Origin: Candidatus Saccharimonadota bacterium
GTDB taxonomy: Bacteria > Patescibacteriota > Saccharimonadia > Saccharimonadales > Saccharimonadaceae
Assembly (NCBI GenBank): GCA_017431745.1
Contig: JAFRKK010000013.1
Location: 1 to 64,000, forward strand
Reading direction: 5' to 3'
Length of the DNA stretch: 64,000 nt
How positions within the stretch are numbered: the stretch's first letter is position 1; the number at the start of each line of letters is the position of its first letter. Shown in pieces: positions 2,889-54,782 of this stretch. A program made the position numbers and the translations under genes. The notes below the pieces were generated by a model that was not told where the DNA came from, searched no databases, and saw nothing but the letters and a program-made list of their open reading frames with translations.

Positions 2889-3263
2889 ATGAAAGATTAC
2901 GAACTCACTGTCGTGTTTCATCCCGATCTCGAGATGAATCTCGACCCCGCCCTTGACAAGGTGAAAAAGGTCATCGAGTCAAACCAGGGCAAAATCACCA
3001 AAGAGGAGAACGATGGCAAAAAGCGCCTCTCCTACAAGATTGACGGCCAAGAATTTGGCGTCTACTACTATTTTGACCTCCAGCTTCCAGCCGAAGCCCC
3101 AGCCAAAATCAGCAGCACCTTTAACATTACTGATGAGATTTTGCGCTATCTTCTCGTCAAAGCTGACCCCAAAAGGGCTAAATTAGCTGCGCTTAAAAAA
3201 GCGGAGGAAAACGCAGCCGAAGAACCGGTGGGCGAATCATCAACTAATGAAAAAGGAGAATAA
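2889..3263 (+). CDS. rpsF: Small ribosomal subunit protein bS6
   Basis: Ribosomal protein S6, which binds S18 on the platform of the 30S subunit. It is 124 aa; the N-terminal fold (MKDYELTVVFHPDL, the KKRLSYKI strand and YYYFDLQLPAE) is typical, followed by an acidic, Ala/Glu-rich tail. AAAGGAG lies 6 nt before the ATG. It heads an rpsF-ssb-rpsR cluster, a widely conserved bacterial order, with efp as fourth gene. The spacing of 6 nt to ssb implies cotranscription. Confidence 0.95.
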   Translation: MKDYELTVVFHPDLEMNLDPALDKVKKVIESNQGKITKEENDGKKRLSYKIDGQEFGVYYYFDLQLPAEAPAKISSTFNITDEILRYLLVKADPKRAKLAALKKAEENAAEEPVGESSTNEKGE

Positions 3264-28350: not shown

Positions 28351-28725
28351 ATGAAAAAAGTTTTATCAGCTCTTACTGCCATTATTCTAACTTTTTCCGT
28401 TCTAGCTACTCCAGTTTTTGCCGCCGACAAGGACAAGGCAGAAAACACCGGCGTTGAAACTGCCATCCTCACTACTTGCGGTCAAGATAGCGATGGCGTA
28501 GGCTGTATTTTAAGACTAGTTGTTGACATTATGTCCATCGGTATCGGCATCCTAGGCGTTATCGGTATCACTATAGTTGGTATTCAGTACCTCACTGCCG
28601 GTGGCGACGAAGGTAAAGTCAAAAAATCCAAGCAACGTATGTTTGAAATTGTGATTGGCCTGGTCGCCTATGTTGTAATTTATGCCGCCTTGCGCTGGCT
28701 TTTGCCTAACTTCAACGGTGTATAG
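28351..28725 (+). CDS. VirB2/T4SS pilin-like small membrane protein
   Basis: 124 aa with a cleavable signal peptide (residues 1-25, ending PVFAAD), a short Cys-containing segment (TTCGQDSDGVGC) and two membrane helices with a basic loop between them (GGDEGKVKKSKQRM). This is the architecture of TrbC/VirB2-type T4SS pilins seen in many CPR genomes. No other type IV secretion gene lies in the window, so the role is open. AGGAGG precedes the start; probably cotranscribed with rpoD or the following lipid kinase. Confidence 0.65.
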   Translation: MKKVLSALTAIILTFSVLATPVFAADKDKAENTGVETAILTTCGQDSDGVGCILRLVVDIMSIGIGILGVIGITIVGIQYLTAGGDEGKVKKSKQRMFEIVIGLVAYVVIYAALRWLLPNFNGV

Positions 28726-28734
28726 GAGCCAAAA

Positions 28735-29724
28735 ATGAAACGTATTCTCATTGTTTACAACCCGCGCTCTTCTCGCTACGCCGAGGTTGAAAGGGATGTT
28801 CTTACTCCAGCCCGCGACCTTAAGGGCTACATTATTGGTAAATATGAAGTCAAACCCACCAACCTAGATGACAACATCGCTACCCTGTCAAAACTTCTCA
28901 AAAACGGCGACATCGTCATTTCCGCCGGCGGTGACGCCACCGGTGTCATCTCCGCAAACGCCATCTTAAAATCCAAAAAAGACGTGACATTATCTGCCCT
29001 CCCTTTCGGCAACTTCAACGACCTCGCCCGCACCCTAGGGAACAAAAATGTAGTTGGAAATGGCCTTTTGAGGGTATTTCGGAGCGCGGCAGCGCGAGAA
29101 TTAGCGCGCTCGCCCCGTGGCGACGGGCGCGAGCGACGCGACCCGAAAAAGGCCATTCCAACTACCAATTTATACCCCCTAGAGATTTGGGTAGACGGCA
29201 AGTTCTTCCGCTATGCGACCTGTTATGTCACCATCGGCATGACCGCCGCCGCCGTCCACCTTTACGACCAACCCAAAATGCGAAAAGCCCTCAAAACTAA
29301 CTTCGGTCGTAAAATCACTTCCTACACCGCTCTAACTAGTTGGTATTTCAAGCACCGTCATAAAAAAGTCTTCCTTCCCGAATTTACCCTCAACGGCGTC
29401 AAACAACACAAAAAAACTTCTGACTACGCTGCCGTCAATGGCCGCTCCATGGCCCGCGTCATGAAAGGCGGCGATGATTTTCTAAAACCCAGCGTTTTTC
29501 ATCACGAAACCGACCGCCTCACTAGCTTCTGGCGCCTAGCTAAGTTAATGCTAAAAAGCATTTTCCATCGCATCCCTGGCACCGAAACCACCGGCGATAT
29601 TCTAGAATTCATTAAACCAGCCACCACCGAGCTTCAAGCCGAAGGTGAGCACACAGTCTTAAAAAATATCAATAAAATCGAAATCAGGAAGGGAACCACA
29701 TGCCTGAAAGTCATCACGAATTAG
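28735..29724 (+). CDS. Diacylglycerol/lipid kinase-like protein with in-frame palindrome
   Basis: DAGK catalytic-domain family (YegS/LCB5-like), 329 aa; phosphorylates a lipid or related substrate. N-terminal RILIVYNPRSSRYAEVERDV and the nucleotide motif SAGGDATGVISANAIL (GGDGT variant), then PFGNFNDLARTLGNK. Residues about 106-144 are encoded by a palindromic element giving an Arg/Ala/Gly-rich insert (ELARSPRGDGRERRD), after which the family sequence resumes at PLEIWVDGKFFRYATCYVTI. GGAGCC precedes the ATG. It overlaps the next gene by 25 nt. Confidence 0.8.
   Translation: MKRILIVYNPRSSRYAEVERDVLTPARDLKGYIIGKYEVKPTNLDDNIATLSKLLKNGDIVISAGGDATGVISANAILKSKKDVTLSALPFGNFNDLARTLGNKNVVGNGLLRVFRSAAARELARSPRGDGRERRDPKKAIPTTNLYPLEIWVDGKFFRYATCYVTIGMTAAAVHLYDQPKMRKALKTNFGRKITSYTALTSWYFKHRHKKVFLPEFTLNGVKQHKKTSDYAAVNGRSMARVMKGGDDFLKPSVFHHETDRLTSFWRLAKLMLKSIFHRIPGTETTGDILEFIKPATTELQAEGEHTVLKNINKIEIRKGTTCLKVITN
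29050..29165. repeat. In-frame palindromic element, lipid-kinase copy
   Basis: Arms 29050-29069 and 29147-29165 form a 19-bp stem with one bulged base. The core contains GCGCGGCAGCGCG, the hairpin CCCCGTGGCGACGGG and GCGAGCGACGCG. It shares core features with the argS, ileS and xer/ackA copies but not the arm sequence. The reading frame is kept. Confidence 0.85.
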
Positions 29725-30497
29725 AACAAATTATCAAATATATGAAATCCCACTGGCCCTCCAAGGTCAAGCCCGAATGGCAAGTAGCTCTTGGCGAATA
29801 CCCTAAAATCTTAGAACAAGTCCTCGCCGACTTTACTGTTGCCACTACTAAAAATCATCATTTTATCCGCATCGCCGGCCTTTCGGGTTCTGGCAAAACT
29901 ACCCAAATCCTCCCCGCCGTCGAAGCGTATTCTAAAAAACATAATTTCGAACCCATCCTTCTAGCCGCCCGTCGTTTTGTGGAATATCACCCCCACTACC
30001 AGGAAATTAAGGATTTCTACGGTGATGAAAACCTCCGCAAAAATACCGACGAGTTTAGCACTATTATGTTATTTCTTACCCTATCCGAACTCACTAAAAG
30101 CGGCTATGACATCGTCCTAGACGTCACCCTCCTCGACCCCGAAATGGAAGCCATCCTTCTCAAAATGCTAACTGCCTATCAATATGACTTCACTATTTTA
30201 ATGATTGCCGTCTCTCCCACTGTCACCGAAAAGTTCTTAAGCGGTCGCGCCTGGCGCCACAGTAAGGCAACCGAGCAAGAATTTATCCGCGCCACCGAAA
30301 AAGCCCTCGCCTTTTACGCCGATAAAGCCCCATCTACTCATATAATATTATGGAGCGTCTACGATCTAGATCCTATCTACGACGGTCCAGTCAAGGACTG
30401 TTTACAAATCTTCCACGACTATTCCACCCGCACCGACCTTCCAAAAAACGACGACGACGCCCGCCGCGACGCCAAAATCGCCTACCTCACCCGCTAG
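29700..30497 (+). CDS. Zeta-toxin-like P-loop kinase
   Basis: 265 aa with Walker A GLSGSGKTTQILPAVEAY near residue 60, a DVTLLDPEME stretch and an Arg-rich SGRAWRHSKATEQEFIRATE that resembles the lid of zeta-type kinases. Family members phosphorylate UDP-sugars as toxins or act as housekeeping nucleotide/sugar kinases. No antitoxin-like partner overlaps it; the HTH gene at 30760 is separated by 260 nt with its own promoter. GGAAGGGA precedes the start. Confidence 0.6.
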   Translation: MPESHHELEQIIKYMKSHWPSKVKPEWQVALGEYPKILEQVLADFTVATTKNHHFIRIAGLSGSGKTTQILPAVEAYSKKHNFEPILLAARRFVEYHPHYQEIKDFYGDENLRKNTDEFSTIMLFLTLSELTKSGYDIVLDVTLLDPEMEAILLKMLTAYQYDFTILMIAVSPTVTEKFLSGRAWRHSKATEQEFIRATEKALAFYADKAPSTHIILWSVYDLDPIYDGPVKDCLQIFHDYSTRTDLPKNDDDARRDAKIAYLTR

Positions 30498-30672
30498 ACC
30501 CACGGCCAAAACCGACGTTTTCAAAAAACACCCTACCATCTAAGCAATACCACCTTCGCAATTTCTCCAGAGGTGATACTACTTAAGCTCGCTCAAAATT
30601 AGTGGGGGGTTGTAATTTTTGTTGTTTTATGCCTATACTCTCCAGAATTAACAACTTTAATTAAACATCCTC
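30498..30672. other. Intergenic stretch without recognised gene
   Basis: After the zeta-like gene I see no reading frame with a start and ribosome binding site. The bases around 30601-30612 are a GTGGGGGGTTGTAA-like stretch similar to the GTGGGGGGGTTCAA at 35515-35528 on the other side of the DGR island. No hairpin terminator is evident. Confidence 0.4.
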
Positions 30673-30701
30673 TTGACAATATGGGATATATGCCATATAA
30701 T
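30673..30701 (+). promoter_or_regulatory. Promoter with overlapping operator of the HTH gene
   Basis: TTGACA (30673-30678) and TATAAT (30696-30701) are spaced 17 bp, the best consensus promoter in the window. An inverted repeat ATATGG-N8-CCATAT (30679-30698) fills the spacer and overlaps the -10, the expected place for autorepression by the HTH product. A hairpin GTGGGAG/CTCCCAC lies in the leader near 30718-30749. Confidence 0.7.
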
Positions 30702-30759
30702 AAGCACTAATGGAGATGTGGGAGACTGGTAAATATTCCAAACTCCCACCACTAGAATA

Positions 30760-31215
30760 ATGATACACCGAGGAATTAAAGTAGAGTTTCTAAAAGGCAC
30801 CAAATTAAAAATGACTTTCCAAGACGGCAAAGTCAAAATCTACGATATGGCGCGACTTTTTGAGTGCTACCCCGAAACTAAAGCCTTAAAAAATCGCAAG
30901 TTATTCAAATCTGGTAAACTTAACGCCTACGGAGTTATCTGGAATGACGAACTAGACATTGACTCTGATACGGTCTATGAATGCGGCAAAGACGCCGGGG
31001 AAGAGGAAGTCTCCGCCAGTACCATGGTGGCTTACGCCGTGACAACAGCGCGAGTAAGCGCCGGCCTTTCCCAAGCTCAACTCGCCAGTATCACTAATAT
31101 CAACCAAGCTGATATTTCTAAAATTGAACGCGGCACTGCCAACCCCTCAGTAAATACACTTAACCGTATTGCCAAAGCCCTAAACTCTCAACTCCTAGTC
31201 TCATTTCAAAAATAA
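30760..31215 (+). CDS. DUF2442-like / HTH-XRE regulator
   Basis: 151 aa. The N-terminal part (GIKVEFLKGTKLKMTFQDGK, then YDMARLF) resembles DUF2442-type small domains found in toxin-antitoxin proteins. The C-terminal half is a Cro/C1-type helix-turn-helix: SAGLSQAQLASITNINQADI, then SKIERGTANPSVNTLNRIAKAL. It is probably a DNA-binding autorepressor acting on the operator just upstream. No toxin gene is directly attached. It borders the DGR island and could regulate it, but its recognised site is only at its own promoter. Confidence 0.75.
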   Translation: MIHRGIKVEFLKGTKLKMTFQDGKVKIYDMARLFECYPETKALKNRKLFKSGKLNAYGVIWNDELDIDSDTVYECGKDAGEEEVSASTMVAYAVTTARVSAGLSQAQLASITNINQADISKIERGTANPSVNTLNRIAKALNSQLLVSFQK

Positions 31216-31317: not shown

Positions 31318-32772
31318 ATGAAGCACCATCAAAAAAACCTTAACTCCAGCCATATATTATATGGTATTTCTGGAGTTTTATTATTTGCCACAGTCCTAAC
31401 TGGCGTAGTTCTATCCAGCCCTACCACTAAGGCCGATAGCCAAAAGACAGAAACCAGCAACGTCTCCGTCACAGTTAATTCAGCCTGTACTCTGTATGGT
31501 GGCCCAAATGGCACAGAAACTAGTGGCAGTAGCATTTACAGTGCTACTATAGACCCAGGTACCTCAGCTGAGATTAATGGTAGCAAACTCACTACCATTT
31601 GTAATGATCCTAACGGTTACTCACTCTATGCTATCGGCTATTCTAATGATGCTTATACTACACCTACTAATACTCAAATGATAGGAAGTGGTGGTATTGG
31701 TAATATCAATACTGGTACTAGTGGCACCAGTGCTTCCTGGTGGGCTATGAAGATTAACCCAGTATCAGGTAACAACCCTACCATCATGAATACCTTCAAT
31801 AACTATCATGTAGTACCACAAACCTACACCCAAATCGCTCAGTATAACTCCTCTACCTCTTCAGCCTCATCTACCGGTGCCCAGGCTCAAGTTAAATACA
31901 ATGTCTATATTAGCAGCGCCCAAACTGCTGGTACCTATACTGGCAAAGTAAAGTACACTATGGTTCATCCTAACAATGCCGCTGCACCATCTACCAAGAC
32001 CATTGCCGATGCTACTTATATGCAGGAAGTAGGAAGCTGTCCATCTACCTTAACCACTGGCATGGTCTATCAGCTAACTGATAGTCGTGATAACCAAAAA
32101 TACTTAGTAGCAAGACTCAAAGACGGCAACTGCTGGATGCTTCAAAACCTCAAACTCGGCCGCTCTACCTCAACTCTCACTCTAACCCCAACCAATTCTG
32201 ACGTAGGTAGCAATTACATCCTAGACAACAAGCTCCCATCTCCAGGCAAATTCCATGCCTATACTATTGATGGAGTGGTAAACCAGAACAACAGCACCGA
32301 ATACTATTGTACTGGCGATGGTACTGCTAGCGACTGGGAATCCTGCTATTATAACTGGTATACTGCTACGGCCGGTACTGGTACTACCTACATCGCTACT
32401 CAAGGCCAAAACGTTAATAATAGTATCTGTCCAGCTGGCTGGACCTTGCCCACCAGTGGTTCAGGCGGCCAATTCCAAGCCCTCTATAATCAATACCCAT
32501 CCGCCGCTCAAATGGAAGTAGCAAACCCAACTACTACTAAGGAAAACACCCCAACTGTAGGTCAAGTCACAAACACTCCTGGCTTCCTGCTTAGCGGCTA
32601 CTACTACACTGGTGGAGCCAGGGGTCTCGGCTCCTACGGCTACTACTGGTCGCGTACTGCGGGTTCTGCTCAGAGCGGATGCAGTCTGTACATGTATACT
32701 ACCGGTGTCTACCCTTCGGACTACAACCGCAAGTACTACGGATTCGCAGTCCGTTGCGTGTTACAGCAGTAG
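31318..32772 (+). CDS. FISUMP-domain surface protein 2, DGR target
   Basis: 484 aa secreted protein and target of the diversity-generating retroelement. Basic N-terminus and membrane/signal segment (about residues 14-36, ending TTKADS), a beta-rich domain of about 200 residues, then the FISUMP module from EVGSCPSTLTTGMVYQLTD through GNCWMLQNLKLGR and ICPAGWTLPTSG to FAVRCVLQQ. The last 66 codons lie in the variable region, whose residues differ from the template-encoded version mostly as Asn to Tyr, Ser, Gly or Asp. This is expected to alter a lectin-like ligand surface. The ligand is unknown; a host-cell or phage surface is plausible. Confidence 0.88.
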   Translation: MKHHQKNLNSSHILYGISGVLLFATVLTGVVLSSPTTKADSQKTETSNVSVTVNSACTLYGGPNGTETSGSSIYSATIDPGTSAEINGSKLTTICNDPNGYSLYAIGYSNDAYTTPTNTQMIGSGGIGNINTGTSGTSASWWAMKINPVSGNNPTIMNTFNNYHVVPQTYTQIAQYNSSTSSASSTGAQAQVKYNVYISSAQTAGTYTGKVKYTMVHPNNAAAPSTKTIADATYMQEVGSCPSTLTTGMVYQLTDSRDNQKYLVARLKDGNCWMLQNLKLGRSTSTLTLTPTNSDVGSNYILDNKLPSPGKFHAYTIDGVVNQNNSTEYYCTGDGTASDWESCYYNWYTATAGTGTTYIATQGQNVNNSICPAGWTLPTSGSGGQFQALYNQYPSAAQMEVANPTTTKENTPTVGQVTNTPGFLLSGYYYTGGARGLGSYGYYWSRTAGSAQSGCSLYMYTTGVYPSDYNRKYYGFAVRCVLQQ

Positions 32773-32827
32773 CAGTGTCGCTGGGGCCGCAGTCTGGTGC
32801 CGGGTAGGCCGGTGGCCTTGCCCCCTC
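32575..32827 (+). repeat. DGR variable region (VR)
   Basis: 253 bp, colinear with the template at 34874-35126 (inverted) without gaps. Twenty-two positions differ; in 21 the template has A (to T, G or C) and in one it has C (to G). Mutated positions run from 32599 to 32737, with one more A to G at 32785, beyond the stop codon (32770-32772). The bases 32786-32827 are identical and GC-rich, the place of an IMH-type initiation site. Confidence 0.96.
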
Positions 32828-32910
32828 GAATTCTCCAGGCTAACAAAGAGTATCGGGTGGAAAAGTATAACTAGAGCGAAAAAGTATCAATGTCAAAATG
32901 AAAGGCAAAA

Positions 32911-33714
32911 ATGGCTAAAACCACCAACCAAAAGTCAAAGTCTGCAAAAAAGACCAAATCTGACAAAGACCGGTACTATGATCTGAAGCGGAGAATTTTG
33001 AGTTGGGAAAAGGAAAACTACACCAGGCTGGCGGTAGTGGAAACCGGCGACGGCTGGTACAAATTGTTCGACCATTCTGCAATAATCTACGCCTGCCAAA
33101 TCGCCAAAAGATTAAAAATCGCTGCCAAACTGGTTTCGGATGCTGATTTCAGGTTTACGACTGATACGCCAGTATGTTTGCTAAAGGAACTGAACGAGTT
33201 TGAGGAGGCTTTGAAAAGTCTAAAGATCTTCCGGTCGTCAATGGAGCCAGGGGTTTATGTCTATGATTTAGGTTACAGAGTAGATGCGGGAGATTTAGTA
33301 TCCTGGCAGAAGGAAGAAAAACTACTAAGGGAACGGGCGAATGAATTGGTGCTGCCAGTGGAAGTATTTCCGGGACTCAGGAATGAGTTGAAATTGTTAA
33401 CCTGTAAAATATACGAAGTAGTCAGAAAGATGAACACAACCGGTCGGGAACTAGTCGGTGATGGGCTAGTTGGTACCTGCTCAAAAATGTATGTGAACTT
33501 TGTAGTGGCAGCAAACGGACACACCGACATGCGACAATATTTAAAAACCACGGTGAAAGATTTAAGGCTAATGGAAGCGAAGATGCTCCTCGTATCGGAA
33601 CTAAGGTTAGCGACAGATAACCAGGTGTATAATCTGCTACTGAGGATTGGTAAGGCCCACCGCAAAGTAGCGGATGCGCTAGCCAAAACAGAGTCAGGTG
33701 ATTATGGCCACTAA
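32911..33714 (+). CDS. DGR accessory protein: MutS-domain-I-like plus Avd-like
   Basis: 267 aa. Residues about 15-130 (YYDLKRRILSWEKENY, then LAVVETGDGWYKLFDHSAII) resemble the MutS mismatch-recognition domain I pattern (V-G-D-F-Y-x-x-F-x-x-D-A), as in MSL-type DGR accessory proteins. Residues about 150-265 (LKLLTCKIYEVVRKMN, then DMRQYLKTTVKDLRLMEAKM) fit the Avd four-helix-bundle family, which binds the reverse transcriptase and template RNA. In described systems these usually occur as separate genes, so a fusion is notable. The coding is A/G-rich, unlike neighbours. It overlaps the RT gene. Confidence 0.7.
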   Translation: MAKTTNQKSKSAKKTKSDKDRYYDLKRRILSWEKENYTRLAVVETGDGWYKLFDHSAIIYACQIAKRLKIAAKLVSDADFRFTTDTPVCLLKELNEFEEALKSLKIFRSSMEPGVYVYDLGYRVDAGDLVSWQKEEKLLRERANELVLPVEVFPGLRNELKLLTCKIYEVVRKMNTTGRELVGDGLVGTCSKMYVNFVVAANGHTDMRQYLKTTVKDLRLMEAKMLLVSELRLATDNQVYNLLLRIGKAHRKVADALAKTESGDYGH

Positions 33715-34840
33715 GAAAAAGTGTCACAAAAGTTATGCCAACCAAGTGAGCCGGGCTTGGCTCCACCGTGAGTTATATCGAGCGTACTTGGCAGCCAGGA
33801 AACACAAACGCCATACTAAGGACGTGTATTTATTTGAAATGAACTTAACGGAGAACTTAACGCAACTTTGCGAAGATATCATCCGGCAACGCTATCAGCC
33901 CAGCCGCAGTATTGCTTTTATCGTAAGATTTCCGGTGATAAGGGAAATTTTTGCAGCACCGTTTCGAGACCGTATTGTCCACCATTTTCTCTATAATATG
34001 TCCTATGATTGGTGGGACCGGCGGTTGATTTATGATTCGTATTCTTGCCGGATTGGCAAGGGGGCATTGCTTGGGATTTTGCGTTTACAACATTTTATTC
34101 GAAGCGCATCCGAGGACTATACTAAAGAAGCCTATGTATTAAAACTAGATATTCAGGGGTATTTTATGAGTCTGTCCAGACAGAAACTTTTTGATAGAAT
34201 ATGCTGGGGAATTGAACGCCAATTTGCCGGCAACCGGAATACGGGGAATCTAATGAAATACTTATGGAAGCAAATAATTTTTGATGACCCCTGTAAAGGA
34301 GTGAGGATTCGGGGGTATTGGAGTAATTGGAGCTGTTTGCCGAGAACTAAAAGTCTATTTTACCAAAAGGCGGGGTATGGCATTGTGATTGGGAATTTAT
34401 CATCGCAGCTGCTATCGAACATCATGCTAGACCAACTAGACCGCTATATCTATTACGAGCTGGGCTATAAAAGGTACGGGCGTTATGTGGACGATTTCTA
34501 TATTGTGGTAACGGCAGAAGAACTAGCGCAGTTGAAAAAGGACATAAGCAAAATAGATATGTTCTTAAAGGGGGAGTTGGAGCTAACTTTACACCCGAGA
34601 AAACGGTATTTGCAAGAAGTACATAAAGGAGTAGAGTTCTTAGGTGCGGTGGTGTATCCGAATCATTTAGCGCCTTCAAAAAGGTTCAAAAACAATTTTT
34701 ATAAGGCCGCGGCAGAGGTAGGAATGGGGTATCGGGATGCAAACTCGATTATTTCGTACCTAGGGTTATCCAAGCATTACGATAGCAAAAAATTGTCGAA
34801 GAGAGTATTTGACTATTACGGGTGGGACTATAGTTTTTAG
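33704..34840 (+). CDS. DGR reverse transcriptase
   Basis: 378 aa reverse transcriptase of the DGR clade. RT motif GYGIVIGNLSSQLLSNIMLDQLD carries the SQ-type signature of DGR enzymes in place of QG. The catalytic box is RYVDDFYIVV and the thumb region includes LTLHPRKRYLQEVHKGVEFLG. It makes error-prone cDNA from the template RNA, misincorporating at adenines. ATG 33704 is preferred over GTG 33698 because AGGTG lies 5 nt upstream; both overlap the accessory gene. Codon use differs from host genes, which suggests transfer. Confidence 0.95.
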   Translation: MATKKKCHKSYANQVSRAWLHRELYRAYLAARKHKRHTKDVYLFEMNLTENLTQLCEDIIRQRYQPSRSIAFIVRFPVIREIFAAPFRDRIVHHFLYNMSYDWWDRRLIYDSYSCRIGKGALLGILRLQHFIRSASEDYTKEAYVLKLDIQGYFMSLSRQKLFDRICWGIERQFAGNRNTGNLMKYLWKQIIFDDPCKGVRIRGYWSNWSCLPRTKSLFYQKAGYGIVIGNLSSQLLSNIMLDQLDRYIYYELGYKRYGRYVDDFYIVVTAEELAQLKKDISKIDMFLKGELELTLHPRKRYLQEVHKGVEFLGAVVYPNHLAPSKRFKNNFYKAAAEVGMGYRDANSIISYLGLSKHYDSKKLSKRVFDYYGWDYSF

Positions 34841-34873
34841 CTTTTGGTAATGGGGTGATTTTGGTGAGAATCA

Positions 34874-35126
34874 GAGGGGGCAAGGCCACCGGCCTACCCG
34901 GCACCAGACTGCGGCTCCAGCGACACTGCTACTGCTGTAACACGCAACGGACTGCGAATCCGTTGTACTTGTTGTTGTTGTTCGAAGGGTTGACACCGGT
35001 AGTATTCATGTTCAGATTGTATCCGTTCTGAGCAGAATTCGCAGTACGCGACCAGTAGTTGCCGTTGGAGCCGAGATTGTTGGCTCCACCAGTGTTGTAG
35101 TTGCCGCTAAGCAGGAAGCCAGGAGT
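34874..35126 (-). repeat. DGR template repeat (TR), inverted
   Basis: 253-bp template whose sense (adenine-bearing) strand is the minus strand, opposite to the RT gene and the target. It would encode an Asn-rich version of the target C-terminus, with AAC codons at nearly all varied sites. The shared segment ends at GCCCCCTC (minus strand), after which similarity drops. The template lies just after the RT stop. Confidence 0.95.
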
Positions 35127-35482
35127 ACTGGTTTATGCTGCTTTTAAGAGAGGCTGCCATCTTTAGTTGCGATTTTTCGGTTGAGTGTCTCTTCGCCTAC
35201 ATCCAACAACAGGTCAGCTTTTGAAAGCCAATTGCTGATGTTCAGATGAACGACTAAAAAGCTCAGGCACCCCGTAGAATACCTGCCTAAAGGTATAAAC
35301 CTCGCGCAGCCCTAACTCATGGCCAGGGCACATGTCAACCACATGGCTAAGCCACATGACTAGGTTATGCGTGGACGCACAAGGGCGTTCATGAATTCTC
35401 TATTTACATGAGGCAGTCCGTTATTTAGGATGAGGCAGCCTGTCCTAATCCGGACAATCACCCCACTAGGGTAATTGTAACA
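35127..35482 (-). ncRNA. Putative leader and promoter of the DGR template RNA
   Basis: On the minus strand TGTTACAAT (TACAAT 35474-35479) is an extended -10 like others in this window, and would start an RNA near 35467 running about 340 nt before the template. The region has no convincing reading frame and several short stems, for example TGGCT-A-AGCCA and TGCGT-GG-ACGCA (plus-strand reading), and a repeated CCACATG. I assign it as template-RNA leader by position. It could alternatively be an unrelated structured RNA. Confidence 0.45.
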
Positions 35483-35553
35483 TAATACCCACTCCGCCTA
35501 CGCTTAACCCGCGATGTGGGGGGGTTCAATTAACTGAGCAATTTGTGTAAGGG

Positions 35554-35582
35554 TTGAACTTTTCCCCAATCTGTGCTATAAT
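35554..35582 (+). promoter_or_regulatory. rpsU promoter
   Basis: TTGAAC (35554-35559), a 17-bp spacer and TGCTATAAT (TATAAT 35577-35582). The ATG follows 10 nt after the -10, so the mRNA has almost no leader. Confidence 0.75.
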
Positions 35583-35592
35583 ACACCCTAAT

Positions 35593-35811
35593 ATGGCTAT
35601 TAAAGTTACAAGAAAAGATCAAGGTGAAGCGAACGAGAACATCATTCGTCGTTTCAACCGCAAAGTCCTCCAGAGTGGCATGATGCCTTTGAAGAAATCG
35701 CAAATGCGCTTTACTAAACCTATGTCTAAGCGCGAGCGTCGCCTCAAGGCCATCATCCGCGAAGCGCGCAAGGCCGAAAAGACCGAACGCATCAAATTAG
35801 GACTCAAATAA
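35593..35811 (+). CDS. rpsU: Small ribosomal subunit protein bS21
   Basis: Ribosomal protein S21, 72 aa, involved in initiation on the 30S subunit. It is basic: MAIKVTRKDQGEANENIIRR, KVLQSGMM, then MSKRERRLKAIIREARKAEK. The start at 35593 is chosen because an upstream ATG at 35554 lies in the -35 box. A canonical terminator follows at 35814-35839. Confidence 0.93.
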   Translation: MAIKVTRKDQGEANENIIRRFNRKVLQSGMMPLKKSQMRFTKPMSKRERRLKAIIREARKAEKTERIKLGLK

Positions 35812-35813
35812 TA

Positions 35814-35839
35814 AAATCCCCCTTAAAAGGGGATTTTTT
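35814..35839 (+). terminator. rpsU intrinsic terminator
   Basis: AATCCCC and GGGGATT form a stem with a short loop, followed by a run of six T on the plus strand. It closes the single-gene rpsU unit ahead of the adk promoter. Confidence 0.9.
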
Positions 35840-35877
35840 GATTGCCATATATGCTATAATATCCCTAAAGGAGTTTT

Positions 35878-36471
35878 ATGATTATACTATTTGGTTTAGC
35901 TGGTTCCGGCAAGGGCACTCAGGGCAAAGCATTATCCGAGATTTTCGGTTGGCGCTGGCTTTCCGTCGGCGAAGCCATCCGCCAGCACGGCGGCTACGAG
36001 GAAATCATCAATAGCGGCGGCCTCATCCCTGATGAAGACGTCATCCATCTCATGGACAAGCAAATCAAAAAAGCCGAAGACGAGGGTTTTGACGTCATCT
36101 TGGATGGTTACCCCCGTGACAAAGCCCAGGCTGAATATATTATGGAGCACATGGCCGATAAGGTCGACGGTGCTATTATTCTGGAAGTTCCAAAGTCAGA
36201 ATTATACGAGCGCCTTGCTCTCCGTGGCCGCGATGATGATAAGGAACGTGCCAGCATCGATCACCGCTTTGCTATCTTTGAACAAAATATTTATTCAATT
36301 TTACCCCTGTTAGAAGCGAAAAACATTCCTATCGAGCGCGTTGATGGTGTCGGCAAAATAGAAGACGTCACCGCTCGCTTAGTCAATGTAGTCAAAGAAA
36401 TGAACCCTGACGCCACCGAACAGGAGCAGGATGTTAACGGCGACGATATCGAAAGGAGTTACGGTGAATAA
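35878..36471 (+). CDS. adk: Adenylate kinase
   Basis: Interconverts ATP + AMP and 2 ADP. 197 aa. Walker A GLAGSGKGTQGKAL at the N-terminus, LDGYPRDKAQAEYI (AMP-binding/NMP motif) and RLALRGRDDDKERASIDHRF at a short LID without zinc Cys. The C-terminus has an acidic extension. TGCTATAAT lies 15-23 nt upstream, with AAAGGAG before the ATG. It overlaps map by 8 nt. Confidence 0.93.
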   Translation: MIILFGLAGSGKGTQGKALSEIFGWRWLSVGEAIRQHGGYEEIINSGGLIPDEDVIHLMDKQIKKAEDEGFDVILDGYPRDKAQAEYIMEHMADKVDGAIILEVPKSELYERLALRGRDDDKERASIDHRFAIFEQNIYSILPLLEAKNIPIERVDGVGKIEDVTARLVNVVKEMNPDATEQEQDVNGDDIERSYGE

Positions 36472-53767: not shown

Positions 53768-54782
53768 GATTAATCAATTCTGTCACGATATCATCGATAT
53801 CCCCATCCATCACCGCTGGGATATTTGACCTAGAATAATGAATCCGGTGGTCGGTTACACGGTCTTGCGGAAAATTATAGGTTCGGATTTTTTCGCTTCT
53901 ATCTCCTGTGCCAATCAAGGACTTACGAGCCTCTGAGGCGTTCTTACGTTCCTCTTCCTTCTTTTTCTCAAGTAGCCTTGTCCTTAGCACATTCATCGCT
54001 TTGACGCGGTTCTGTTGCTGTGAGCGCTCATCTTGCATTGCCACCACAATTCCAGTAGGGAGGTGTGTAATTCGTACTGCTGAATCAGTTGTATTCACCC
54101 CCTGACCACCATGTCCGCCCGAACGATAGATATCGATCCTGAGGTCTTCTGGTTTAATTTCTAAATCCTTTTCCGAAGCCTCTGGTAGCACTGCCACCGT
54201 CACTGTAGAAGTATGAATTCGCCCCTGTGATTCGGTCACCGGCACCCTTTGTACTCGGTGTACACCACCTTCAAACTTAAGTTGACCATAAGCCTCATCA
54301 CCAGAAATCTTGAAAATCACTTCTTTCATCCCACCAGCTTCGTTTTGATTTTCAGAAATCAGCTCAAACTTCAGCCCATGCCTTTCAGCATACTTCATGT
54401 ACAAACGATAAAGCTCTGCCGCGAAAAGTGATGCCTCGTCACCCCCCGCCCCTGCTCGGATTTCAAAAATCGCCGGTTTATCGTCTTCTGGGTCGCGCGG
54501 GATCAACAATTCCTCCATTTTTTCCTCAGCAACTTTGAGCTCATTTTTTAATTTTTCTGAGTCTTCTTTTGCAATCTCGCCAAGCTCCGGGTCATTTAAC
54601 AGGGAATTAGCCTCCTCTAAATTGTTCTTCATCTGTTCAATATTTTTGTTCAAATCCAAAATCTCGCGCAAAACATTCGCGCGTTTGCTTTTCGTTGCGA
54701 ACTCCGGATCCGCATAAGCATCAGGTTGAGCCAAAAACTCCTCAATCCGACCAAGCTCCTCTTTAATTTTTTCTAAATCCAT
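53745..54782 (-). CDS. prfA: Peptide chain release factor 1
   Basis: Recognises UAA/UAG and triggers peptidyl-tRNA hydrolysis. 345 aa. The specificity segment has [17 protein letters not shown] (P-x-T class, hence RF1 and not RF2), and [19 protein letters not shown] carries the GGQ motif. The start at 54782 has minus-strand TATAAT (54789-54794) 6 nt upstream. Divergent from tRNA-Val through a shared promoter palindrome; prmC follows. Confidence 0.95.

Follow-up and report, generated by a model that had tools for sequence, protein, structure and literature searches.

The diversity-generating retroelement (DGR) of BPP-1 carries its template (TR) on the strand of the reverse transcriptase (RT) gene; 3′ of TR lies an RNA module to which RT-Avd binds and from which cDNA synthesis is primed (PMC12875486). 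The route of the mutated cDNA into its target, and the reason why IMH works but IMH* does not, are incompletely understood (PMC12875486, 2026; PMC3240598), and a preference for targets co-directional with replication has been reported for the reconstitution of BPP-1 in E. coli. RT clade 2 comprises DGRs of the Candidate Phyla Radiation (CPR), and its targets are usually without recognizable domains (Roux et al. 2021, PMC8144416), and several DGRs may be found per patescibacterial genome (PMC10907252). In the accessible literature on CPR DGRs we found no description of a 5′ leader fold or guide.

The window analysed here, a 64,000-nucleotide stretch of contig JAFRKK010000013.1 from a gut Saccharibacterium (assembly GCA_017431745.1), contains a collinear arrangement of genes for a FISUMP target, an Avd-fold accessory protein and an RT, with TR just beyond the RT gene on the opposite strand (Table 1). 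The FISUMP protein has a hydrophobic, signal-like segment at its N terminus and VR at its C terminus; Pfam places the FISUMP domain at residues 270–481, and a lectin fold is presumed from this domain match. VR (32575–32827) and TR (34874–35126, inverted) align without gaps over 253 bp with 22 differences, 21 of which are at TR adenines (hypergeometric p = 6e-14), a recount that agrees with the initial annotation. The single non-adenine difference, C>G, is flanked by mutated adenines (AACAAT>AGGGGT), and the full 261-bp homology adds two more, TG>GA, which lie inside the proposed guide site and distinguish the VR 3′ end (IMH) from that of TR (IMH*). The 21 changed adenines are spread over 32599–32785, the one at 32785 being downstream of the target stop codon (32770–32772). 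Eight AAC codons have indeed become TAC, but the initial annotation went too far in ascribing most of the changes to this class, as A>T accounts for only 9 of the 21 (the ninth is AAT>TAT) and A>G for 11. Similarly, the adenine specificity that it described holds, at 21 of 22, but to call this “direct evidence” of retrohoming overstates what is one static comparison.

Table 1. Features of the DGR locus in the window
Feature	Position	Strand	Remarks
Target gene, FISUMP (Fib_succ_major) protein	31318–32772	+	484 aa; PF09603 6e-13, TIGR02145 3e-13
VR	32575–32835	+	261 bp homologous to TR; extends 63 nt beyond target stop codon
GAATTCTC, proposed IMH/guide-binding site	32828–32835	+	VR 3′ end; 8/8 complementary to leader guide
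Accessory protein	32911–33714	+	267 aa; N-terminal alpha/beta domain (about 17–125); Avd-like four-helix C-terminal domain (about 150–263)
DGR-type RT	33704–34840	+	378 aa; IGNLSSQ, YVDDF; RVT_1 2e-7, above cut-off
TR	34866–35126	−	Antisense to RT; starts 26 nt past RT stop codon
Template-RNA leader	35127–35479	−	From −10-like element (TACAAT, 35474–35479) to TR
Structured leader core	35244–35393	−	150 nt, larger than in most relatives; covariation in relatives
P1 3′ arm	35246–35252	−	By analogy with relatives
P2 5′ arm	about 35376–35384	−	By analogy with relatives
P1 5′ arm	35386–35392	−	By analogy with relatives
Guide-like element GAGAATTC	35393–35400	−	Complementary to VR 32828–32835

The SSQ motif and YVDDF box reported earlier for the RT are borne out by its translation, in which DGR-type motif 4 (GxxxSQ) reads IGNLSSQ and the YxDD box reads YVDDF. 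Judged by NCBIfam curated cut-offs, the protein falls far below group II intron, retron and DRT RTs (e.g., 64.7 vs 300, 44.6 vs 235 and 33 vs 200). In the AlphaFold model of the accessory protein (pLDDT 90) the C-terminal domain is predicted to have the Avd fold (Z 14.4–14.9 over 108–111 residues), and the phrog_3206 Avd profile matches the accessory protein in 3 of 25 relatives; the window protein had no match in Pfam and no credible match in PDB profile searches. The N-terminal domain is possibly MutS-domain-I-like, which would recall the MSL (MutS-like) accessory proteins of DGRs: searched alone, its best rows were mostly MutS domain I (Z 5–6.5), tied with GFRP and others, and Foldseek returned nothing at E<0.001. 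With an RT bearing DGR-type motifs, TR>VR differences specific to adenines, a FISUMP target and an Avd-fold accessory, this Saccharibacterial locus is, on its sequence, a genuine DGR. It acts on a FISUMP surface protein, as the initial annotation had proposed.

The host genome and the template RNA hold features absent from that annotation, namely a second complete DGR, remote VR paralogs and a leader RNA with a guide-like element. The RT of the second DGR is 54% identical to that of the window, and all 19 of its TR/VR differences are at template adenines. There are about 28 FISUMP matches in the genome, and six further VR-like paralogs were written by a template now absent from the assembly. 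DGR-type RTs are present in 94 of the 174 species of the genus. Two close relatives, L174 and L175, have 1068 of 1071 RT nucleotides and 206 of 207 TR nucleotides in common, and of the 26 positions that set their VRs apart 24 are template adenines; variation of this kind over a shared TR is what the initial annotation had anticipated. Since the VRs of these near-identical relatives diverge at adenines over a shared TR, the clade is, by this allelic comparison, active in diversification; for the species of the window one strain was compared, and the allelic evidence comes from L174 and L175.

The new part of the finding is the 5′ leader fold of the template RNA together with its guide-like element. 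In 64 related DGRs TR is likewise antisense to the RT and starts just beyond its stop codon (5–376 nt), and a promoter-like TATAAT is kept among relatives. The window leader has a folding z of −2.8 and matched no Rfam family at E≤1. Whole leaders proved too divergent to align by sequence alone, only the −10 element and fragments being alignable. The leader fold consists of P1 enclosing P2, and this core covaries in relatives, with P1 pairing at 87.5% vs 69.5% when shuffled (two-sided cells 28 vs 8.4) and P1 plus P2 pairing at 92.6% vs 72.4%. The P1 seed arms were chosen by eye with complementarity in mind, and a held-out covariance search serves as the control: in 325 kb, each of the 12 matches fell where a leader should lie, and on the correct strand. 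In a scan of the genus, all 19 matched genomes belong to the 94 that are RT-positive. The model of P1 and P2 (R2) replaced one of P1 only (R1) that found several held-out leaders and one probable false match (L185); R2 did not match the window's own leader with its 150-nt core, phage leaders or BPP-1.

Among the 64 relatives, a guide-like segment of about 8–15 nt adjoins P1 on its 5′ side and complements the top strand of the target at the VR 3′ boundary, and the TR 3′ end less well. In the window TR has TGATTCTC where VR has GAATTCTC, and therefore makes only six contiguous pairs with the guide. A complement of at least 8 nt to the VR 3′ boundary is found at 45 of the 64 loci, as compared with 9–13% for swapped loci; the longest complement reached this length in 24 of 35 loci of a first set (swapped 12.9%, p 4e-14) and in 21 of 29 loci of an independent set (swapped 9.4%, p 2e-11). 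Of 48 phage DGRs that have TR and RT on one strand, 21 also show 5′ complementarity of at least 7 nt (vs 25%, p 1e-4), and complementarity on their spacer side is not in excess. Same-strand matches of 24 nt between VR 3′ ends and leaders, which came up in a control, belong to loci where VR itself is inside the 450-nt stretch used as the leader. Against a guide speak the 19 of the 64 loci without a complement of at least 8 nt, the shortness of the window match (only 8 bp, −13.3 kcal/mol), the failure of R2 to match the window leader, phage DGRs or BPP-1, and the remote VRs L003 and L004, which agree with TR1 at (almost) every non-adenine position and yet have no guide site. A stem-loop directly 3′ of VR was seen by eye in the relatives L041, L076, L077, L079, L172 and L174, and none is evident in the window. 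For the remote targets, the replication orientations given by local gene strand and by GC skew conflict between contigs.

Taken as a whole, the locus is probably best explained as an active-type Saccharibacterium DGR in which the guide-like segment of the 5′ leader pairs with the target at the VR 3′ boundary; from the complementarity we infer for this segment a role in docking the hybrid of RNA and cDNA there. In the free RNA, the guide segment would pair with the 3′ end of TR and so set up cDNA priming from a nearby nucleotide. The product would be a guide-RNA-plus-cDNA strand, antisense to VR throughout, that could anneal to the target in the manner of an RNA-primed Okazaki fragment, and mismatches to the guide would protect TR itself from becoming a target. 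The outcome would be fresh variants of a lectin-like surface protein, probably used for binding the host bacterium, given that Saccharibacteria live as epibionts.

The most serious competitor, to which we give appreciably less credence, is an ordinary DGR. Here the leader segment would have the TR 3′ end as its sole partner, for cDNA priming, its complementarity to VR would come from shared sequence, and the target would be recognised by cDNA homology and other factors. BPP-1 cDNA is indeed primed within IMH* by an internal spacer adenine (PMC12875486), TR complements the leader over at least 8 nt in 60% vs 10% when swapped, and the TR match exceeds the VR match in length at 17 of 63 loci. Against this, VR pairs better with the guide than TR does (energy p 2e-5): duplex energies are −19.4 for VR, −15.1 for TR and −12.1 kcal/mol for swapped loci, with VR the stronger in 24 of 29. 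TR is mismatched to the guide, and VR fits it where the two differ, in 44 of 47 loci, a count for which loci were selected by VR match first and in which some TR mismatch is expected, because the VR boundary is the end of TR-VR homology. The complement in L041 is present in VR and mostly absent from TR, and in BPP-1 it is VR that fits at all three differences within VR 118–126.

That VR merely records past diversification by a DGR no longer working is improbable. The species is represented by a single strain, and the template that made the six VR-like paralogs is absent from the assembly, but all four parts of the locus (target, accessory, RT, TR) are intact, YVDDF and SSQ are retained in the RT, TR accounts for every VR difference but one in 253 bp, and near-identical relatives carry allelic VRs. 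We attach next to no weight to an origin of VR and TR as paralogous FISUMP fragments that diverged through recombination or Asn-codon selection, for which the many mutually similar FISUMP paralogs of the genome would speak: in 33 DGRs of the genus, the share of changed positions is 36% for template adenines and 0.4–1.0% for other bases, and TR is non-coding and adjoins an RT in each of the genomes seen. As far as sequence can do so, the adenine bias over these 33 loci rules out an origin of the TR/VR differences other than reverse transcription.

An RNA stretch matching the end of the rewritten DNA suggests how DGRs may find their targets, and the agreement of guide-like elements with their own targets, locus by locus in dozens of cases, provides a concrete hypothesis at the level of base pairs. 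Were the guide real, the preference for co-directional targets would be explained, because an antisense strand begun from an RNA primer is akin to an Okazaki fragment. We lean towards the broader proposal that DGR targeting is by RNA guidance, with a short stretch of the template RNA, joined without a break to the nascent cDNA, pairing with IMH at the VR 3′ end and TR escaping through its mismatches (IMH*); the Saccharibacterial guide/priming module would then have shifted to the 5′ side of the template from the 3′ side, leaving the RNA in effect circularly permuted relative to that of BPP-1. The genus is one of host-dependent bacteria, and the occurrence of up to four DGRs per genome, with genomes of about 0.4–1.2 Mb, points to diversified surface proteins as central to its lifestyle.

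Among known systems, group II introns offer an analogy only, their EBS-IBS pairing also placing an RNA segment on a target DNA strand at the insertion boundary; unlike them, the locus shows no ribozyme, intron excision or endonuclease, and its RT scores 64.7 against a maturase cut-off of 300 bits. The Treponema denticola DGR (PMC4891356) likewise combines one TR with several remote target paralogs and remnants of an earlier template, but the present genome has two complete DGRs, and its remote VRs are without a guide site. With CPR DGRs the window has in common a patescibacterial host and several DGRs per genome, and it differs from those of clade 2 in that its targets are FISUMP proteins. Unlike in BPP-1, the window TR is antisense to the RT with its 3′ end 26 nt from the RT stop codon, the structured module with the guide-like element is 5′ of TR, and the Avd protein has an additional N-terminal domain; since TR is convergent with the RT and so close to its stop (5–376 nt in relatives), there is no BPP-1-type TR-RT spacer module in the window. 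Like BPP-1 (mtd/avd/TR/brt), the window combines an RT and an Avd-fold partner with adenine-specific transfer from TR to VR and with an IMH unlike IMH*; in both, a lectin-fold gene has VR at its 3′ end. Within the first 145 nt of the BPP-1 spacer, complementarity to a VR 9-mer occurs only once, between spacer 48–56 and VR 118–126 in IMH, with pairing at 9 of 9 positions (TR at 6 of 9). After this spacer segment, in which the known priming adenine would lie, comes AG, a feature that many Saccharibacterial leaders share.

The gapless pairing of a variable repeat (VR, 32575-32827) with a minus-strand template repeat (TR, 34874-35126) is confirmed, as are the 22 differences counted in the initial annotation, 21 of them at TR adenines (p 6e-14). 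The sole non-adenine difference in these 253 bp is a C>G flanked by mutated adenines. The homology extends to 261 bp, with two more changes at its extreme end, and the VR continues 63 nt past the target stop codon (32770-32772). AAC>TAC is indeed a common change (n=8), but it is not the majority that had been claimed, because the adenine changes comprise 11 A>G, 9 A>T and 1 A>C. The reading of the locus as a diversity-generating retroelement (DGR), a known kind of element, is correct, and the locus shows most of the tested features of the family but no spacer module 3' of the TR in the style of the Bordetella phage BPP-1. Upstream genes (28351-31215) encode a T4SS-pilin-like protein, a zeta-toxin-like kinase (29700-30497) and an HTH/DUF2442 protein (30760-31215). 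GC skew is positive only over the DGR (32001-36000) and negative almost throughout the remaining window; the DGR genes possibly have a foreign composition.

Features of the window DGR
Feature	Position	Strand	Remarks
FISUMP target	31318-32772	plus	PF09603 and TIGR02145 matches
Accessory	32911-33714	plus	
RT	33704-34840	plus	
TR	34866-35126	minus	starts 26 nt past RT stop
Guide-like element GAGAATTC	35393-35400	minus	pairs 8/8 with VR 32828-32835

The accessory protein matches no Pfam family, and its AlphaFold model (pLDDT 90) has two domains. The C-terminal bundle adopts the Avd fold (Z 14.4-14.9 against BPP-1 Avd and 17.0 against 2gsc). Matches to the PHROG family "Avd protein of DGR" occur in 3 of 25 relatives. 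Modelled alone, the N-terminal domain retrieves mostly MutS domain I; since Z is just 5-6.5 and ties with GFRP, a possible MutS-like (MSL) identity is no more than a lead. Such MSL proteins have already been reported as a type of DGR accessory (PMC10053308). Accessories at two other loci (L198 4227-5237 and L205 4068-5084) carry an additional N-terminal helix-turn-helix domain.

DGR-type RTs occur in 94 of the 174 species of the genus, at one to four per species. The layout was first recognised among about 40 fetched loci (set 1), and another 40 formed an independent set (set 2). Almost every locus in which a VR/TR pair could be detected has its TR on the strand opposite the RT, just beyond the RT end; inverted cassettes are known elsewhere (PMC6642488). 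At a single locus (L078/L228) the adenine rule identifies as TR the repeat that lies upstream of the RT, on the RT strand and in the place of the target gene. Over 33 pairs, the changed template bases are A 722/2006, C 22/2193, G 7/1666 and T 10/1636. Differing VR alleles under one TR, which the annotation had proposed to seek in related strains, are found in two genomes (L174 and L175) whose RTs are identical at 1068/1071 and TRs at 206/207 positions: the VRs differ at 26 sites, 24 of them adenines. Both are metagenome assemblies and the contig is possibly shared or misbinned, but the allelic difference stands regardless. The diversified target probably mediates host binding.

In the template RNA sense, a TATAAT-like element recurs upstream of the TR, followed by a leader of ~180-400 nt that matches no Rfam family. 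Side-by-side comparison of leaders revealed a core, present in at least 30 loci, in which stem P1 (CAGAAGCN ... NGCTTCT) surrounds stem P2 (CCCTTGC..GCGAGG). When 15 cores were aligned by sequence alone, P1 pairing came to 87.5%, versus 69.5% after shuffling and 42-56% after sliding, with 28 two-sided cells versus 8.4. P1 arms pair within their own leader in 25/30 cases and with other leaders in 11.6%, and over ten cores P1 and P2 together are 92.6% paired versus 72.4%. The arms were picked with pairing in mind, and a held-out search is therefore the fair test. When R2, a covariance model of this core built from ten loci, was searched against 38 set 2 loci (325 kb, both strands, E<=2), all 12 matches fell at the expected leader position and on the correct strand, position being judged by the RT in L209 and L224, where the TR was undetected. 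Across 170 genus genomes, 19 had R2 matches, and 19/19 of these are RT-positive. One genome (G022), whose only RT is on C8, has two matches far from it, C2:67093-67192 and 53907-53987, and a TR-like match adjoins one of the two; they are possibly orphan template RNAs served in trans. Another locus (L212) has two matches past one RT (2531-2605 and 3085-3159), possibly tandem template RNAs.

Directly 5' of P1 lies a guide-like segment whose sequence varies by locus and is complementary to the 3' boundary of the same locus's VR. In a blind test that ignored P1 and compared 24 nt of VR boundary with 450 nt of leader, complements of at least 8 nt were found in 24/35 set 1 loci (swapped 12.9%; p 4e-14) and 21/29 set 2 loci (swapped 9.4%; p 2e-11). 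Controls taken from inside the VR gave background levels; the same-strand control is inflated because the VR of some loci falls within the 450 nt. The TR 3' end is also complementary to the leader, but more weakly: mean duplex energies are -19.4 for VR, -15.1 for TR and -12.1 for swapped pairs, and the VR duplex is the stronger in 24/29. Where the VR pairs perfectly, one or more TR mismatches occur in the same register at 44/47 loci, a figure partly ascertained because the site lies at the homology end and was chosen by its VR match. The window TR differs by two bases at its guide site.

Most likely, the guide pairs with the TR inside the RNA, which would prime cDNA synthesis beside it, and the RNA-plus-cDNA strand, antisense to the VR throughout, would then dock on the target by annealing at the VR 3' end (IMH); the TR mismatches may provide self-protection. 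An Okazaki-like intermediate and lagging-strand preference, discussed in PMC12875486, are consistent with such annealing.

The window's own genome (744 kb, 13 contigs, 97% complete), whose named relatives with RTs 53-62% identical belong to Candidatus Saccharibacteria, several of them originating in ruminant gut, holds a second complete DGR with the same layout (C1:100494-104544; L041 3495-7545). Its mismatches lie at adenines in 19/19 cases, and its guide GGTGGAGGGC matches 10 nt at the 3' end of the VR of this DGR and hardly matches the TR. FISUMP has about 28 distinct matches in the genome (31 matched stretches). Remote VR paralogs match the window's TR (TR1), two of them closely: C10:22919-23104 (L003) with 16 adenine differences and no other, and C1:59389-59571 (L004) with 23 and one other. 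Shortly downstream of the L004 target gene is a long, MITE-resembling inverted repeat (GGCGGGTGACGGCACGTATTTTTCTAGCATC...). The guide site is absent from both VRs despite their agreement with TR1 at (almost) all non-adenine sites, and such VRs, evidently written by TR1, are the weak point of the guide model. They may have been written in trans, by homing that tolerates an absent site, or may be copies moved from the cassette by recombination. Six further VR-like C termini (L005-L008, L014, L016) share many non-adenine letters unlike TR1 and differ from one another mainly at adenine columns (42% versus 7.5% among L006-L008). Neither TR1 nor the second DGR's TR fits them, and no fitting template was found in the assembly; the simplest reading is that an older or missing template wrote them. 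Their consensus is closer than TR1 to the TR of a relative (L169).

Among 48 non-redundant phage DGRs with the TR on the RT strand, the TR 5' flank is complementary to the VR end more often than expected (21/48 versus 25% at 7 nt, p 1e-4; one complement of 15 nt, in L092), and the 3' flank shows no excess. In BPP-1, priming of cDNA takes place within IMH*, the matching end of the TR, from an internal spacer adenine (PMC12875486). Of the VR 9-mers there, VR 118-126 alone has a complement within the first 145 nt of the spacer, namely spacer 48-56; the TR pairs at 6/9, and all three VR/TR differences favour the VR. The priming adenine is reportedly A56 and the cDNA start TR G117, as attributed to Naorem in 2017 and Handa in 2018; in that case the guide would directly abut the cDNA on the VR. 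This match is one locus and is weighted accordingly. BPP-1 carries its spacer module 3' of the TR, an arrangement that the window DGR lacks, and the conserved leader RNA with its guide-like element is a new variant that yields a testable claim on target recognition.
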